Shown here: piece after piece, positions 666-20,758 of the stretch
Numbering within the stretch: the first letter of the stretch is position 1
Layout of the letters: every line of letters starts with the position of its first letter
Origin: a virus
Reading direction: 5' to 3' (one strand)
IMG/VR virus record: IMGVR_UViG_3300009130_000169
Coordinates: 1 to 20,758 of that record
DNA: 20,758 nt
Notes under the pieces: model-generated
What the model was told of the DNA's origin: nothing
Seen by the model: only the letters and a program-made list of their open reading frames with translations
Database searches by the model: none
Position numbers and translations under genes: made by a program

Positions 666-1129
666 TGAGTAATTCATTTATTCAAGACGCATTGCGTACA
701 GAGTCACCCAAATACTTCCCACAAGACCCACGAGTACTACATGCTGCGTTCGGTCTTGTAACAGAAGCAGGTGAACTACTTGACGCACTAAAGAAGGCTT
801 CGTTTTATGGACGTGAGCTAGATGTGACAAACATCAAAGAAGAAGCAGGTGACATCCTGTGGTATCTAGCAATTCTATTTGATGCGGTAGGTACTGACTT
901 CGAAACAGAACAAGCTCGTGTGATTGCTAAGTTGAAAGCACGATTCCCAGAGAAGTTCACAGAACAAGAAGCTTTTGAACGGGATTTGAAAACAGAGCGG
1001 AAAATATTAGAAGGTAATCTTTGCGACACATGTACAGAAAACTTCGCAGTATGTAATGGTGAACCTAAATTCGGCAACGGTTGTGGAAAAGCCAATGTAA
1101 TTGCATGTAAGGCACATAAGGTAGGATAA
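665..1129 (+). CDS. MazG-like nucleotide pyrophosphohydrolase with Cys-rich tail
   Basis: A 154-residue protein of the all-alpha MazG/dUTPase-type NTP pyrophosphohydrolase superfamily, which hydrolyses (d)NTPs or related nucleotides to monophosphates and pyrophosphate. The metal-binding pattern is visible as E34-x2-E37 in TEAGELLDALKK and E60-x2-D63 in IKEEAGDILWYL, a complete single MazG domain over about residues 20-95. Residues 117-151 form an unusual tail with C120-x2-C123, C130, C140, C148 and H151, which could bind zinc (inference). The start codon overlaps the nrdB stop as TAATG, so it is probably translated together with RNR, which fits a role in nucleotide pool control. The substrate (dNTP, ppGpp or damaged nucleotides) cannot be told from sequence. 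Confidence 0.85.
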   Translation: MSNSFIQDALRTESPKYFPQDPRVLHAAFGLVTEAGELLDALKKASFYGRELDVTNIKEEAGDILWYLAILFDAVGTDFETEQARVIAKLKARFPEKFTEQEAFERDLKTERKILEGNLCDTCTENFAVCNGEPKFGNGCGKANVIACKAHKVG

Positions 1130-1524
1130 TGATAGGTACTAACACATACAGAACTCAGCACTTTTCACCCGAGGGTGACGAAAAGTTTACTTGTAGTTGT
1201 TGTAAAGGTGGTGGTATTAGTATAGCTACATTAATTGTGCTAGAAGTAATAAGAATGCACTTTAATAAGCCAGTCACCATACTATCAGCAGCACGTTGTA
1301 GAAAATATAATAAACAAGTAGGTGGTTCAAAAAATAGTGAACATATATTCACAGAAGATGAACCATTAGTAGATGCAGTAGACATACATGTAAAGGATGT
1401 TTCAGTACAAGAACTATACATGTTTCTAAAGAATCTGCCATTTGCCAACTTGTTAGGAATCGGTAAGTACAAGAATTTTATACATATAGATACCCGTGGC
1501 TATGCTGCAAGGTGGTCTGTATAG
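1129..1524 (+). CDS. M15-family zinc peptidase (endolysin-like or cell-wall peptidase)
   Basis: A 131-residue protein resembling the peptidase M15_3 group (D-Ala-D-Ala carboxypeptidase / L-Ala-D-Glu endopeptidase fold) that cleaves peptidoglycan peptides. The N-terminal HFSPEGDEKFTCSCCKGGG matches the usual HF..xEF.C.C..G opening. Zinc-site candidates are H72 in SEH, D85 in AVDIH and H119 in IHID. The spacing H72 to D85 is about six residues longer than the common SxHxxGxAxD form because of the segment IFTEDEPLV. No signal peptide or membrane segment is seen, so release would need a holin or delivery in the virion. It overlaps the mazG-like stop by TAATG and ends the leftmost gene cluster. 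It could be the phage endolysin, although it sits among metabolism genes rather than beside a holin. Confidence 0.75.
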   Translation: MIGTNTYRTQHFSPEGDEKFTCSCCKGGGISIATLIVLEVIRMHFNKPVTILSAARCRKYNKQVGGSKNSEHIFTEDEPLVDAVDIHVKDVSVQELYMFLKNLPFANLLGIGKYKNFIHIDTRGYAARWSV

Positions 1525-5390: not shown

Positions 5391-6398
5391 ATGGATATTC
5401 AAAATATTGCCGCCAGCGCTGCGGAGAATGACGATTTAAACCCTAAAATCCATGCCGAAAGGGTTTTACAGGCTGACGCAGATTTTTTCTGTTATTACTG
5501 TGCATGGACAGACGAATCAATACAAGAGAACTTTAACGCACTTAAGAACATGTTACAAAAGAAGCGTGTAATGGCAGGTGCAGGACACATTAATGTACAT
5601 TTAACATTAGGCTTAAAAGGTGGACGAGAACAGTTCGCCTCTGTAAAACCGTATCAAGAAAATAGAGCAGACAGAGACCCTATTAAAACAGAAAGGGTAA
5701 GACAGTTACGCACTATGTTAGGTAATTATAAAACACCAGAGATAACACCGGTAGTTAACGTATTTCAGGAAGCAGACGATTCTTTATCACAAATGCAGTT
5801 AGCTAGACGTAAAGAGTTAGGTAACAATAGTTCTATTATTATGTCGGGTGATAAAGATTTATGGATGGTAGAAGGTTTACACTGTGACCCAGAAACAGGT
5901 AGAGTATATAATGTAAAAGGTTATGGAAGTACATCATATAAAGAGGTAGGTAACGTAAAACCTAAGTTGATAGGTACAGGTACGTCATGGTTCTGGCACC
6001 AGATGATAATGGGCGATACAGCAGACAATATACCAGGATTACCTAAATTAACAGGACGTTTAGCTAATAAGTATTTACCAACTAAAACATATAACCCTAA
6101 TAGAAAAGCGTTAGCTTGTGGTGAAGCGAAAGCCGTAGCTATGTTAAACGGTGTAACTAATGACTACGACGCAATGAAAATTGTAACAGAAGCATACTCA
6201 GACTTTTATAGAGATGGTTGGCAATACATGTTTCTTGAACAGGCATTCTTACTATGGATGCGTAGAACAAGTAAGGTACTAGATGTATGTGATTTCTTAA
6301 AAGAAGTAGGTTTTAATGTTACTCCATCAGGAGAACAGAAAGACCGTTTAAAACGATTTAAGCAATTGGCTAAGTTACAGATGGAGAGATTTGAATGA
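5391..6398 (+). CDS. 5'-3' exonuclease, FEN/T7 gp6-like
   Basis: A 335-residue flap/5'-nuclease family protein, probably the phage exonuclease that removes RNA primers and degrades host DNA. Metal-site motifs are in the expected order: EADD at 127-130, SGDKDLWMV with D154 and D156, and MGDTADNIPGLP with D209 and D212, the helix-hairpin-helix entry of FEN nucleases. It is about the length of T7 gp6 (300) plus an N-terminal extension. The start at 5391 has only a weak AAGG upstream, 9 bases after the SSB-like stop; the ATG at 5386 is out of frame. The 3' end overlaps the next gene by ATGA. The N-terminal segment MDIQNIAASAAENDDL resembles that of the upstream SSB-like protein. Confidence 0.9.
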   Translation: MDIQNIAASAAENDDLNPKIHAERVLQADADFFCYYCAWTDESIQENFNALKNMLQKKRVMAGAGHINVHLTLGLKGGREQFASVKPYQENRADRDPIKTERVRQLRTMLGNYKTPEITPVVNVFQEADDSLSQMQLARRKELGNNSSIIMSGDKDLWMVEGLHCDPETGRVYNVKGYGSTSYKEVGNVKPKLIGTGTSWFWHQMIMGDTADNIPGLPKLTGRLANKYLPTKTYNPNRKALACGEAKAVAMLNGVTNDYDAMKIVTEAYSDFYRDGWQYMFLEQAFLLWMRRTSKVLDVCDFLKEVGFNVTPSGEQKDRLKRFKQLAKLQMERFE

Positions 6399-14606: not shown

Positions 14607-15203
14607 ATGAGTGAATTAGAAGCACTAAACATGTTACTTAGGTTAATCGGATCAAGTCCTGTATCTTCTGTAGATACAAATCACCCTGATGTAGCAAACG
14701 CTATGGCGTGTCTTACTAGAAACAATAAGAAAGCACAGAAGAGAGGGTGGTGGTTTAACACAAGTTACAATGTGATGTACTCACCCGATGTGGCTGGTAA
14801 TATTATAATACCATCACAAATACTTAGTGTCTTAACAACTGATGTTAACATCGTTAAAAGAGGTACTAAGTTATATAACAATTACACAAGTAGCTTCACT
14901 TTCTCTGAGACAGTCACAGTTATACGAGAAATAAGATTACTTGAATGGGAAGATTTACCAAGTTGTATGCAAGAATTTATTGTATATACAGCTGGTGCGG
15001 AATTTGTACGTGACGAATTAGAAGACCCAAATAAAGAAGCTAGCTTAAAACAAGATGCTGGATTGGCTATGATAGATATTAAAACAGAAGAGTTGAAGTC
15101 TTTAGAGATTAATCAGTTCCATGTAAATAGAATAGCACGAGCGCGAGCAGGTGTTAGACCAGCTAGGTTAAGTAGATTCAATAGACCTTTATTCGGAGAG
15201 TAA
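14607..15203 (+). CDS. Tail tubular protein A, T7 gp11-like
   Basis: A 198-residue adaptor protein, close to T7 gp11 (196), which forms the ring between portal and nozzle. The N-terminal EALNMLLRLIGSSPVSSVD, then DVANAMACLTRNNKKAQKRGWWFN and the late REIRLLEWEDLPSCMQEFIVYTAG are characteristic of the family (the GWWFN block is especially conserved). It begins 100 bases after the capsid gene with AAGGAG as ribosome site and is followed one base after its stop by tail tubular B. Arginine codons are mainly AGA or AGG. Confidence 0.93.
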   Translation: MSELEALNMLLRLIGSSPVSSVDTNHPDVANAMACLTRNNKKAQKRGWWFNTSYNVMYSPDVAGNIIIPSQILSVLTTDVNIVKRGTKLYNNYTSSFTFSETVTVIREIRLLEWEDLPSCMQEFIVYTAGAEFVRDELEDPNKEASLKQDAGLAMIDIKTEELKSLEINQFHVNRIARARAGVRPARLSRFNRPLFGE

Positions 15204-15204
15204 C

Positions 15205-17613
15205 ATGCGTATAGAAGGAACATATAAAACACCTACTATGGGTATGAGTACTCTCTCGGCTAGTAATAGAACAACTGGTACGGCAGCATTACAAGATAAT
15301 TTTAGGTCAGACAAAGTAGAAAAACTTACGAGAAGACCGCCACTAGAATTTGATAAATTACATTATATAAGTACAAGTTTAAATGATGGTTGGCATAATT
15401 ATTATAGAAAAGGTAACGAAGTATTAATAAAAGCAGCAAGTGATGGTATCGTACAAGCATTTGTAGATGGTGAACAGAAAACTGTAAATGGAGATATAAG
15501 TGCTTACGTTGCTAACGGAACAACAGACTTAACAAATACAGTACTTAAATTTACTACAGTAGCGGATACTACATATGTTGTAGATACTACAGTAAAAGCA
15601 AGAATGTTGAAGCCTTTAGAAGAACCAGTATTAGATACTAAACTTGGTGTATCTTATATAAACGTAACAGAGGCGTTAAATTACAGTGAGAATATAGGTT
15701 GGCGAGTTAGGTCAGAATATAACACAGCAGCAGCAGGTACCGTAACAATACCTGATTTTAATGCTTCACCAAGTCCTGAAACAGCAGATACAGCTAGGGC
15801 AACTAACGCAGTAGCAACATCATTGGCAGCAAGTATAAACGCAGCGGGTACAACACTACAAGCAGAGTCTAACGGTTCTACCGTAGCAGTATGGGATACC
15901 TATTTAGGTGGAGGATTCGATCCGGTTCTAGAGCCAGGTACAACTTGGGTAAACATAGTATTATCTGGTGCAGGTGGAGATCGTGCAACAATAGCGATAA
16001 ACAACACAGTAGATACATTAGAAGGTTTACCAAAGAATGCAGTAAATGGTAGTATTATAAAAGTACAACCTGACCCACAGACAGAGAAAGGGGTTTATTA
16101 CCTTAAAGCCACTTCTCAGATAGAAGATAAAGCAATAGAAACAGACCCAACATTATGGGAACTAGAAGAAGTTGTATGGACAGAGACTAGATCACCAGAT
16201 GAAGTACATTACTTTTCACAAGACACTATGCCTTACAAGATTGAGTATGATAGGGATAATGACGAATTTAATGTGTTAGAAGGTGGCTGGGAAGATAGAC
16301 GGGTAGGTGATGAAGACACTGTACCAAAACCAAACTTTGTAGACACAACTATAAATGGTATTGGTTATTTCCAAAAACGTTTAGTCTTTTTATCTAACAA
16401 TACAGTAAGTATGACTAGAGCAGATAAACCAGAAGATTGGTGGAGAAATTCAGCAACTAGTTTACTTGTTACGGATAGTGTATCAATAGAGTCTAGTGCT
16501 ACAGGAATAGATGAATTAAAAACAATAATACCACATAACAAGGATTTATTGATTAGTGCATCAAATGGGCATTTCAAGATTAACGGTAATATAGCAATAA
16601 CACCTCAAACTGTATCGATGACTTTAACATCATCCTTCGAAATACAAGACTCAGTACAACCTGTAAGTATGGACAATAATATTTACTTTATAGCACCTAT
16701 CGGAAGGTTTACAGGAATACAAGAATATACCGGACAAGAAAACACATCTCAGGATATGGCTACCCCTATAACAGATGAAATTATAGGGTTATTCGATAAC
16801 GACTGTTGGAGGATAACTAGCGATTCCAATACAGGTATACTAGCACTACTGTTAAATGATGGTACGCGAAATGTAATCTATATAGGAGAACGTCAAGAAA
16901 CTGATGAAGGTCATATGTTTGCATGGAGTAAGTGGACAACTAGTGTACAATCTATTATGCACATGTATTTTAGTAGAGGTATTCTACATGTTGTTGCACG
17001 AGATGATGCAGATACTTTATTCCTAAAACTACATATATATGAATCAGAGTTAAATACACAAAGAGTATTCCTTGATTTACTACAAAAAGTAGAATCTCCA
17101 GATGGGATAACAATACCAATAGAACCAATATATCTAACATCCCCTGTATATATAGCAGGAGAAGGCTGTGATTATCCTTTCGAGGAATTAACATTACCAT
17201 TAACAGAAAGCATTAGTGGTGGGCAACCATGTTCTATTTATGTAGGACATAGGTATATGTCAAGATACATACCCACAAGACCTTTTAGAGTAGACGGTGA
17301 TTTAAACAAGATTACAACCGATAGAATTAGAATACAAAGATATAGAATAACTATTGAAAATACACAAGAGATAAACTTTAGGATAGATTCAGAGTATTCT
17401 GATTTTGAAGACCAGAATTTTAATAGTAGAATAATGCGTTCAAATAGTAATCTAGTAGGTGAATACGTACCGTATAGTGGTAATATAGAATTCAGTTATA
17501 ATCAAAATGCTCATTTAGCAAAAGCCGAATTCTATACAGATGCAGTAACAGATGCAACTATTACAGATATAAGCTGGGCGGGACAACTATATAAAACAAG
17601 TGGGAGGTTATAA
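15205..17613 (+). CDS. Tail tubular protein B (nozzle), T7 gp12-like
   Basis: An 802-residue protein matching T7 gp12 (794) in size and order; six copies form the tail nozzle through which DNA leaves. Family features are the start MRIEGTYKTPTMGMSTLSAS (typical wording in other phages: QG.sqqpp..r..gq..eq.N), RPPLEFDKLHY, and the central beta-propeller-like part with DRVNF-like strands such as PNFVDTTINGIGYFQKRLVFLS and TRADKPEDWW. ISASNGHFKI, SSFEIQDSVQPVSMDNNIYF and the late YVGHRYMSRYIPTRPF block follow. The ATG is 2 bases after the tail tubular A stop; the stop overlaps the next start as TAATG. Confidence 0.93.
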   Translation: MRIEGTYKTPTMGMSTLSASNRTTGTAALQDNFRSDKVEKLTRRPPLEFDKLHYISTSLNDGWHNYYRKGNEVLIKAASDGIVQAFVDGEQKTVNGDISAYVANGTTDLTNTVLKFTTVADTTYVVDTTVKARMLKPLEEPVLDTKLGVSYINVTEALNYSENIGWRVRSEYNTAAAGTVTIPDFNASPSPETADTARATNAVATSLAASINAAGTTLQAESNGSTVAVWDTYLGGGFDPVLEPGTTWVNIVLSGAGGDRATIAINNTVDTLEGLPKNAVNGSIIKVQPDPQTEKGVYYLKATSQIEDKAIETDPTLWELEEVVWTETRSPDEVHYFSQDTMPYKIEYDRDNDEFNVLEGGWEDRRVGDEDTVPKPNFVDTTINGIGYFQKRLVFLSNNTVSMTRADKPEDWWRNSATSLLVTDSVSIESSATGIDELKTIIPHNKDLLISASNGHFKINGNIAITPQTVSMTLTSSFEIQDSVQPVSMDNNIYFIAPIGRFTGIQEYTGQENTSQDMATPITDEIIGLFDNDCWRITSDSNTGILALLLNDGTRNVIYIGERQETDEGHMFAWSKWTTSVQSIMHMYFSRGILHVVARDDADTLFLKLHIYESELNTQRVFLDLLQKVESPDGITIPIEPIYLTSPVYIAGEGCDYPFEELTLPLTESISGGQPCSIYVGHRYMSRYIPTRPFRVDGDLNKITTDRIRIQRYRITIENTQEINFRIDSEYSDFEDQNFNSRIMRSNSNLVGEYVPYSGNIEFSYNQNAHLAKAEFYTDAVTDATITDISWAGQLYKTSGRL

Positions 17614-18122: not shown

Positions 18123-20395
18123 TGACACAATTTGGACAACCTGTAAGATCGGCTACAAGTGATGCTAAAGAAGGTATAATTAACCCACCTGCTAAAAGAG
18201 TAGCAACACGTAGTACAGCTATTCAATTACAGCCAGAACAAACATCAGGTGTATCATCGTTTGCTAATGCTATAGGCAGAGTAGCCCAAGAAGCGTTAAA
18301 CGAACAAACAGCTAACGTTAATGAAAGACGAGCTATAGAGGCTGCCGCTAGACAAGGTACTGCAAAAGGTATAAATGATGTAGATGCTACTAAAAAACGT
18401 ACAGGGTTTAATAAGTTTATATTTGGTGAAAATGTAGAGTATAGAGAAGCACAAAAACGTGCAGTAGCTAATGGAGTTACGGATTTATACCTACAAGCAG
18501 CATCAGAAATAGATACACATGCAGGAAGTACACCAGAAGAATACCAAGCTGTACTAGCTGAAAATTTAGATAGTATGCTAGAAAACTATGATGATAAAGA
18601 AACTAGAGCCTTAGTAACACAAGGTTGGGCTACTGCATCATCTAAGTTATCTAAGAAGCATTATGAAAATCATTACGCGTACAATCAACAGCAGCAAAGA
18701 GAGACTGTACGTAAATCTATTCGTTCATCAGCGGATATATTTACAATGGATGAATCGTTAGCAACCACACAAGAAGAACTACAAGGTGTAGAGCTAGCAA
18801 AGAATGCTTTATTTAATAGAAGTATGAAACCTGAGAAAATGAGTGACACAGCATGGGATTCTCTGATGAAAGAAGAGATAAACAACTCACTTAGAGAAGG
18901 TAACATAGGATTATATAAAGCAGCTAAGTCACGTGGCGTATTAGATGAATTATCTTTAGATGAACAAGTAGCACTAGAAAGGTCTATTGATAACTACGAT
19001 ACTGCATTTGGTCAAGAAGCTATGCTTTTATATGAACAAGCAGAATTACAAGCAGAAACAGTAAACACTTTAGAAGGTGCAAAGTTATCTTGGCTTGATA
19101 TGAACGCTAAATTAGACCAACTAGAGTCACGTAGTACAGGTACAGATAAAGCTAACTTAGCAATAGCTAGACAGCGTACAGGTGCACAGAAAGATATAAA
19201 CGCTAGAGAGAAAGCCTCGGATAATATAGCTTTAAAATCTATTAGAGAAGCTAAAAAGAAAGAAGATGCAGCAGCTAGAATGGATAGTATTAAACAAGCT
19301 TTATTACTAGATCCTGTTAGCCGTACAACTGCATTAAAAGACTTAGGTTATCCAAAGAAATCTGAATTAGAAGAGGCTATGGATTCTAATGTTATAAGTT
19401 TAATTAGTGACCTATCTCAGTCTAAGGATTTATTATCCAGTAAAGAAGCTATGGCAGAACTACTAGATAACAGAGGTATACAAGAAGCTGTAGTAAGACG
19501 TATTAAAGAGTCTAAAGTGGAAGTACCTTTAGTTAAAACATTAGCAGAAAACTACATTAACGGTTGGTCTACTTTAGTAGATGAAGATGGGCAACCTACT
19601 GAGAAATCCTTACAAGCTATGGGTTTACTTAGTATGTTAGAAAGAGATGCTAATAAGTTTAAATCTACTATTGGTGCGGATAATTATGATAATTGGTTAA
19701 TACTGAAACGTGGTGTACAAGTAGGTAAAACGGAAGATATGATACGTAAAGAGACAGAAGCTTTGTCTACATATAAACAAGATAAAGATTTACGTCTCGA
19801 TAGGTACCCAACTAAAACAGGGGAATCTAAACAAGATTATGTTAAGCGTATCGTAGGAAGAATACCTAACTACAATCCATCTGGGAATGAGTTAAACGAT
19901 CTATTAGTAGACTTCCAAAAAGGTTTAATTATAAACAATGGTAACTTTACTTTAGCAGAGAACTATATTATAGACTCAGTTAAAGGAGGTAGTATTGAGT
20001 ATAAAGGTAATCCAATATGGGGTGGTAAACATTTAGACGAATTAACACCAGACCATAGATTTGAACAAATAATGGATGGTAGTGAAGAACTCAATCTAAT
20101 GGTAGGTTATTTATCATTAGGTACAGGTGGTAAAAAAGATGATTTAGGTAATCCTAAATTTAGAAGACTAAGCGACTTATCAGATTTTACAATAAACGTA
20201 CCTATTAATGGTGATGGTATTGTAATAGATAGTACTAACTTCCAAGCACCTGTTCGTATATCAGAAGAAACACTACGTACATGGGATAGACAACTAACAC
20301 AACACGAAAAGTTTGAAAAGATGCGAGAGCAGATTCAAGCAGAACAAGTATTAAATGACTGGAAAACTAATCCAAACGCATTTAAAGCATTATAA
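18122..20395 (+). CDS. Internal virion protein, T7 gp15-like
   Basis: A 757-residue, mostly helical protein, nearly the size of T7 gp15 (747), in the matching position between the gp14-like gene and the last core gene. In T7, gp15 forms part of the internal core and the periplasmic ejection tube with gp16. Visible parts are the N-terminal SSFANAIGRVAQEALNEQ, RTGFNKFIFGENVEYREAQ and long charged helices (about 310-390). The ending is NDWKTNPNAFKAL, similar in style to core proteins. There is no signal peptide or catalytic motif. It starts as TAATG on the previous stop, and the next gene begins 11 bases after its stop. Confidence 0.85.
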   Translation: MTQFGQPVRSATSDAKEGIINPPAKRVATRSTAIQLQPEQTSGVSSFANAIGRVAQEALNEQTANVNERRAIEAAARQGTAKGINDVDATKKRTGFNKFIFGENVEYREAQKRAVANGVTDLYLQAASEIDTHAGSTPEEYQAVLAENLDSMLENYDDKETRALVTQGWATASSKLSKKHYENHYAYNQQQQRETVRKSIRSSADIFTMDESLATTQEELQGVELAKNALFNRSMKPEKMSDTAWDSLMKEEINNSLREGNIGLYKAAKSRGVLDELSLDEQVALERSIDNYDTAFGQEAMLLYEQAELQAETVNTLEGAKLSWLDMNAKLDQLESRSTGTDKANLAIARQRTGAQKDINAREKASDNIALKSIREAKKKEDAAARMDSIKQALLLDPVSRTTALKDLGYPKKSELEEAMDSNVISLISDLSQSKDLLSSKEAMAELLDNRGIQEAVVRRIKESKVEVPLVKTLAENYINGWSTLVDEDGQPTEKSLQAMGLLSMLERDANKFKSTIGADNYDNWLILKRGVQVGKTEDMIRKETEALSTYKQDKDLRLDRYPTKTGESKQDYVKRIVGRIPNYNPSGNELNDLLVDFQKGLIINNGNFTLAENYIIDSVKGGSIEYKGNPIWGGKHLDELTPDHRFEQIMDGSEELNLMVGYLSLGTGGKKDDLGNPKFRRLSDLSDFTINVPINGDGIVIDSTNFQAPVRISEETLRTWDRQLTQHEKFEKMREQIQAEQVLNDWKTNPNAFKAL

Positions 20396-20406
20396 AAAGG
20401 TAGTTT

Positions 20407-20758
20407 ATGAGCAATATTCAAAGAGTTATTGATGGTGACACCGTTGAGACAGAAGAAGGCAAGACTAGGGTAGGGTTCATAAACACACCTGAGTCTGTAC
20501 ATGAAGATAGTAAAAGAAATAAACCCGAAGGTGAGATAGCATCCAAGTTCGCTAAGACTATGTTACCAGAAGGGGAAGTTAAAGAAACACCAATTAAACA
20601 AGATGTATTTGGCAGGCAAGTATCAACTCTATCTAGAGAAATAGATGGTATAGAAATAGACTATGGTTTAATGGCATTAGATCAAAATATGTCTACATAC
20701 TTTACACAGTATGGTGAACACCCTGACCCTATGTTACATAATCAGTATAAAGAGTACT
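20407..20758 (+). CDS. Gene in T7 gp16 position, N-terminal SNase-like nuclease domain, 3'-truncated
   Basis: The ATG at 20407 (AAAGG upstream) opens a frame that stays open to the window edge, 117 residues. It begins MSNIQRVIDGDTVETEEGKT and contains INTPES, DVFGRQV, then GIEIDYGLMALDQNMSTYF. This is the order of staphylococcal nuclease (thermonuclease) family proteins: IDGDTV, R..xDTPE, a D-x-FGR block, and a helix with a late Tyr. Equivalents are D9, D11, T12 (SNase D19, D21, T22), R21 (R35), E29 (E43) and R70 (R87). SNase D40 is N26 here. Position after a gp15-like gene suggests the large internal virion protein gp16, which in T7 starts with a lytic transglycosylase. A stand-alone nuclease gene is possible because only the start is visible. 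Confidence 0.7.
   Translation, partial: MSNIQRVIDGDTVETEEGKTRVGFINTPESVHEDSKRNKPEGEIASKFAKTMLPEGEVKETPIKQDVFGRQVSTLSREIDGIEIDYGLMALDQNMSTYFTQYGEHPDPMLHNQYKEY

Follow-up and report, generated by a model that had tools for sequence, protein, structure and literature searches.

An SNase-like domain opens the gene at the gp16 position of a Foturvirus-like marine phage

Why would a T7-related phage encode a nuclease-like domain where T7 starts its gp16? The question is raised by the right-hand end of the window, by which we mean the whole stretch of DNA analyzed here (20,758 bp, the entire IMG/VR record). An ORF starts there with an ATG at 20407 and is still open at the final base, leaving 117 amino acids to be read. 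Since the window is already the whole record, it offers no further sequence for this gene, and its exact end sequence was absent from all other viral contigs searched. A sequence-only reading had proposed that an SNase-like domain opens the gene at the gp16 position, and the ORF itself, the profile of its relatives and the predicted fold all agree with this.

The genes ahead of the ORF lie in the same direction and comprise a T7-type RNA polymerase, the portal, an ORF at the scaffold position, the capsid, tube A, the nozzle, and ORFs at the gp14 and gp15 positions (features in Table 1). This gene order places the SNase ORF at the gp16 position. The RNA polymerase is nearest to those of the Alteromonas phages R8W and H4/4 (55%), genus Foturvirus, and the window phage is a Foturvirus-like, T7-related marine phage. 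Both isolates have the gene order of the window and a homologous protein, which we call SNase-gp16 (vB_AmeP_R8W gp43+gp44 and vB_AspP-H4/4 gp39+gp40). The succession nozzle, gp14, gp15, gp16 is present in the window and in the relatives. The gp14-position ORF gave no family match in Pfam or PHROGs; it sits between the nozzle and the gp15-like gene, as in R8W and H4/4. The gp15-position protein is 38–40% identical to the product of the gene just ahead of SNase-gp16 in R8W, H4/4 and other relatives. It stops at 20395, and the SNase ORF comes directly next. The in-frame TAG between the two shows that there is no read-in from the upstream frame, in contrast to R8W, H4/4 and IMGVR 3300030382_000911, where the upstream frame is fused to SNase.

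Table 1. Features of the window that place the SNase domain in its gene order.
Feature	Position	Strand	Remark
Peptidase M15, probable endolysin	1129..1524	+	Pfam Peptidase_M15_3, 6.5e-20
Tail tubular protein A, gp11 position	14607..15203	+	Pfam Tube, 2.6e-33
Nozzle, tail tubular protein B, gp12 position	15205..17613	+	Pfam Phage_nozzle, 5.4e-100
Small internal protein at gp14 position, 169 aa	17613..18122	+	position only
Internal virion protein at gp15 position, 757 aa	18122..20395	+	phrog_3883 'internal virion protein', 5.4e-17
In-frame TAG, two codons ahead of the SNase ATG	20401..20403	+	
N-terminal SNase domain of a predicted gp16-type internal core/ejection protein	20407..20757	+	gene cut by the contig end

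The match to the SNase family expected from the sequence-only reading holds for several relatives, which exceed the Pfam SNase (PF00565) cut-off of 21 unaided (up to 40.7 bits), but not for the window alone (18.5 bits, E = 0.003). A profile of five relatives matches solved staphylococcal nucleases at 6e-6 and aligns IDGDTV, R, TPE and GR with D19–D21, R35, T41–E43 and R87. By profile alignment, window residues D9, D11, R21, N26, T27, E29 and R70 correspond to D19, D21, R35, D40, T41, E43 and R87 in SNase numbering; R21, E29, R70 and N26 had been numbered correctly before. The window also matches phrog_37474 at profile positions 171–285 (4.5e-37). The AF2 model (pLDDT 63) finds staphylococcal nuclease as its best PDB match (Foldseek 7e-4, probability 1.0, TM 0.4–0.5). 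At this moderate confidence, its order of strands and helices, E-E-E-H-E-E-E-H, is that of SNase. Profiles and model together indicate that the end of the window encodes a real SNase domain despite its Pfam score below the cut-off. The domain also weakly matches phrog_8809 (E = 0.001), in the middle of the profile (positions 1101–1208 of 2317). No function is assigned to that family of very large phage proteins, which may be another case of an SNase within a giant protein.

The comparison set comprised 11 relatives: the isolates R8W and H4/4, and nine metagenomic contigs recovered by profile-based scans of viral contigs (L117, L009, L118, L119, L110, L120, L122, L125 and L111). Scans of viral contigs with single window proteins gave no matches; relatives came up when alignments, or the R8W protein with its greater length, served as queries. 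Over their full length, the 117 residues are 61% identical to R8W gp44 and 54% to H4/4 gp40; the closest relative is IMGVR 3300027742_000002 (L117), with an SNase that is 62% identical. R8W gp44 has 1,818 residues and begins with SNase, which in H4/4 gp40 comes after a lysozyme part. In every relative, SNase is the first domain of the frame, or the second behind a lysozyme, and SNase-gp16 lies directly downstream of the gp15-like gene or its lysozyme. From the SNase start, the frame continues for 1,726–2,082 residues in all 11.

In each case, the continuation is a body homologous to T7 gp16. A profile of ten SNase-gp16 proteins aligned with T7-type gp16 at an HHalign probability of 99.7% over 667 columns (about 470–1220 on the T7 side), and the bodies match phrog_342, 'internal virion protein with endolysin domain', at 1e-77 to 3e-74. 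The relatives thus bear out the proposed fusion of SNase to a large gp16-type core protein, and the opposite layout, with a stop after 150–200 residues and then a gp16 with its own transglycosylase, is seen in none of them (0/11). T7 gp16 itself, in which Pfam places SLT at 15–127, matches phrog_342 end to end. The matches at 1e-77 and 5e-75 begin at profile position 169 or 130, past the transglycosylase part, and SNase thus occupies the transglycosylase position. An AF2 model of 350 residues was too uncertain to place SNase against the body. Extrapolating from all 11 relatives, we take the window's own gene, of which 117 residues are visible, to be almost certainly an SNase-gp16 fusion. The identities of the SNase part and of the body correlate over the 11 phages (r = 0.73, 0/5,000 permutations), suggesting that an old fusion was inherited as a unit and not captured repeatedly in recent times.

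SNase-gp16 resembles T7 gp16 in its position after gp15, its homologous C-terminal part and the presence of an N-terminal enzyme domain. It differs in that this domain is an SNase where T7 has an SLT transglycosylase, and the proteins of the relatives are 400–760 residues longer than T7 gp16. GenBank describes the R8W and H4/4 proteins only as 'putative internal virion protein'. In PHROGs, the phrog_37474 profile covers a lysozyme (1–161), SNase (about 163–290) and the gp16 body, but it is labelled 'unknown function' with no domain named. No SNase was found in Pollyceevirus or in the Vibrio relatives K437b, JSF7 and 526E57-1. The gp16-like proteins of K437b (L005, 12197–16783) and JSF7 (L006, 10073–15124) show instead an ART-PolyVal (ADP-ribosyltransferase) match of about 2e-6, slightly under the Pfam cut-off, which is possibly another injected enzyme.

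Judged from these gene arrangements, SNase is the constant part and the cell-wall enzyme the variable, mobile part. The latter is not simply replaced by SNase, as a lysozyme is still attached in some relatives. It is joined N-terminally to SNase in R8W, H4/4 and L009 (IMGVR 3300030382_000911), the last of which reads lysozyme, SNase and gp16 as a single frame. In R8W and H4/4, a lysozyme gene ending in GTA AAA AAG TAG lies between gp15 and SNase-gp16, whereas no such gene occupies this place in the window, which encodes an M15 peptidase instead. The heptamer A AAA AAG followed by TAG is correctly phased in both isolates (H4/4, L003, 14474–14483; R8W, L002, 14462–14471), and the −1 frame from it enters SNase-gp16. 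A −1 frameshift at A AAA AAG TAG is the probable link between lysozyme and SNase in these two phages, and the H4/4 database record itself notes a −1 frameshift. No stimulatory RNA structure beyond that of shuffled sequences was found at this site. H4/4 has no ATG, GTG or TTG ahead of the SNase core in the −1 frame, so that its production of SNase-gp16 seems to depend on frameshifting; R8W, by contrast, has an ATG at the SNase part. We infer that one gene would yield both a free lysozyme and a lysozyme–SNase–gp16 fusion for the virion.

Other relatives place the lysozyme differently. The gp16 of L122 (10001–16246; 2,082 residues) has SNase at its N-terminus and a phage lysozyme at its C-terminus (Pfam, 1954–2073, 3e-17). 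In L111 (IMGVR 3300037587_000005), a lysozyme ORF with a hydrophobic N-terminus (15435–15956) lies in the +1 frame relative to SNase-gp16 and overlaps its 3' end. The overlap at 15480–15496, AAAAAAAG, contains a run of seven A and reflects either a second frameshift fusion, here C-terminal, an endolysin with a signal anchor or an error of assembly. L118 has its lysozyme elsewhere. No lysozyme was found in the window or in its closest relative, the window and several relatives being partial records. The M15 peptidase is present in the window and in this closest relative, and searches of relatives with a lysozyme did not find it; one type of endolysin seems to stand in for the other. A small ORF directly follows SNase-gp16 in L120 (8894–9232) and L125 (16080–16418). 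The former is M15_4-like (carboxypeptidase) by Pfam, the latter is similar by eye, and they are probably a third type of endolysin.

A Ca2+-dependent nuclease that is delivered to the periplasm with the ejectosome is, in our view, the best explanation overall and a likely one, given the sequences and the analogy with T7. SNase-gp16 would reside in the internal core and leave the particle together with the rest of the ejection proteins. After ejection, the N-terminal domain of T7 gp16 is periplasmic and its C-terminal part reaches the cytoplasm (PMC8954989). By this homology, the N-terminal nuclease would also reach the periplasm, which we consider fairly probable, and the entering genome would be shielded by the gp15/gp16 tunnel. 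SNase enzymes cut DNA and RNA with Ca2+ in the millimolar range, an ion that marine bacteria have in plenty in the periplasm but that is scarce in cytoplasm. During packaging in the cytoplasm, the nuclease would thus stay inactive, and it would become active on reaching the periplasm of a marine host. Such gating would spare the packaged genome and so answer how the phage restrains its own nuclease. We infer both the gating and the target from general SNase biochemistry. Among the uses considered, degradation of envelope-exposed DNA at entry, for example that of a superinfecting phage, would come first, and host nucleic acid near the channel second. Superinfecting or foreign DNA as the target is a tentative assignment. 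The stronger proposal, a virion-packaged, Ca-gated superinfection-exclusion enzyme that rids the periplasm of DNA from other phages or incoming elements, is doubtful. T7 gp16 is present in about 3 copies per virion (T7 record); so few copies of a gp16-type protein would limit bulk digestion, which counts against the nuclease explanation.

The nuclease might instead enter the cytoplasm and help to take over the host early on by cutting its DNA or RNA. Part of T7 gp16 does get to the cytoplasm (PMC8954989), and polyvalent injected phage proteins with DNase-like domains have been proposed to act against host or rival DNA (PMC5512222). However, the N-terminal domain of T7 gp16 remains periplasmic, and an untethered SNase would endanger the entering genome too. 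Free cytoplasmic Ca2+ is low, and the phages already have endonuclease VII and a 5'–3' exonuclease (R8W gp32; window 5391–6398). On balance, we regard a cytoplasmic role as unlikely.

Whether the domain is still an enzyme was judged from an alignment of 12 SNase sequences, the window and its 11 relatives (mean identity 50%, minimum 35%). D21, R35, E43 and R87 are unchanged in all 12. The invariant columns, 22 out of 117, include these four core catalytic residues (chance about 0.001), and pairwise dN/dS over the SNase part is low (0.09–0.26). We also considered that the catalytic set had been lost; this was not seen, the equivalents of the four residues being present in 12/12. Position 40, the Ca2+ ligand D40, is N in nine sequences, D in two and Q in one. 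T41 is kept in 11/12, with V in L125, and T41/P42 vary in some members.

The D40 ligand is thus gone in 10/12, which, with the variable T41/P42, would suit an OB-type nucleic-acid-binding or structural module that is an enzyme no longer and instead guides the end of the genome or serves as a docking site for gp15. SNase adjoins the gp15-binding 'tape' of T7 gp16 (PMC8954989), and the DNA of PhiM1 spools round enzyme-like ejectosome domains (PMC11440229). However, a binding-only OB fold is not expected to retain the catalytic arginines and glutamate, and D21, R35, E43 and R87 are constant although the sequences are up to 65% different. Asparagine at position 40 is, moreover, common in cellular SNases. 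It occurs in 17 of 28 parsed top-scoring SNases (about 60%), nearly all from Pseudomonadota, and in 8/59 of a mostly clostridial set that is biased by its search pattern. The suggestion that N26 modulates activity does not survive this comparison: N is ordinary here, relatives also have D or Q, and we rejected a special regulatory change. With N, Q or D at position 40 and T41V in L125, some members may bind the metal less well. We consider a mere binding module quite improbable and a catalytically competent SNase domain likely from the conserved residues. That the window phage has a short stand-alone SNase gene ahead of an ordinary gp16 is highly improbable. The window does end after 117 residues and other phages have stand-alone SNase genes, but in all 11 relatives, including the closest (62%), the frame at this position stays open for >1,700 residues, and the stand-alone phage and cellular SNases in our comparison mostly start with a signal or membrane segment, which the window ORF is without.

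The nearest precedent found is the BtI1 baseplate hub (Bacillus thuringiensis), which has an N-terminal SNase where its relative 0305phi8-36 gp147 has a transglycosylase (PMC2147016). Like SNase-gp16, it is a virion protein with SNase in the transglycosylase place. It is a single case noted in passing, however, and belongs to the tail hub of a myovirus with a Gram-positive host, not to the proteins ejected from inside a capsid. DNase-like domains are well known among phage proteins that are injected, and the polyvalent proteins are large, injected and multidomain, with lysozyme, ART and DNase-like domains (PMC5512222). The proteins of R8W, H4/4, L009 and L122 combine SNase with lysozyme, whereas the polyvalent hallmarks are MPTase, ART, ParB and RNAP. 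By Pfam, no hallmark domain, including MPTase and ParB-type, was found in the SNase members scanned, and the word SNase is absent from the polyvalent survey (PMC5512222). Searched as text, the R8W paper does not contain the word nuclease. Among open-licence papers, we found no report of an injected SNase in a podovirus, a search that could miss one in a subscription journal. SNase-gp16 is a real and conserved form of the gp16 ejection protein that apparently has not been described before, with a putative function as set out above.

T7-like ejection proteins are known for their cell-wall enzymes, and a conserved DNA-cutting enzyme at this place, which persists as the cell-wall enzyme appears and disappears, implies that the ejectosome has another task. 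A further question is how a phage can package such a nuclease together with its own genome. R8W and H4/4 are cultured on Alteromonas hosts, and SNase-gp16 is thus directly testable. If the stronger proposal above is true, a single entering particle would bring its own superinfection-exclusion enzyme ahead of any gene expression.
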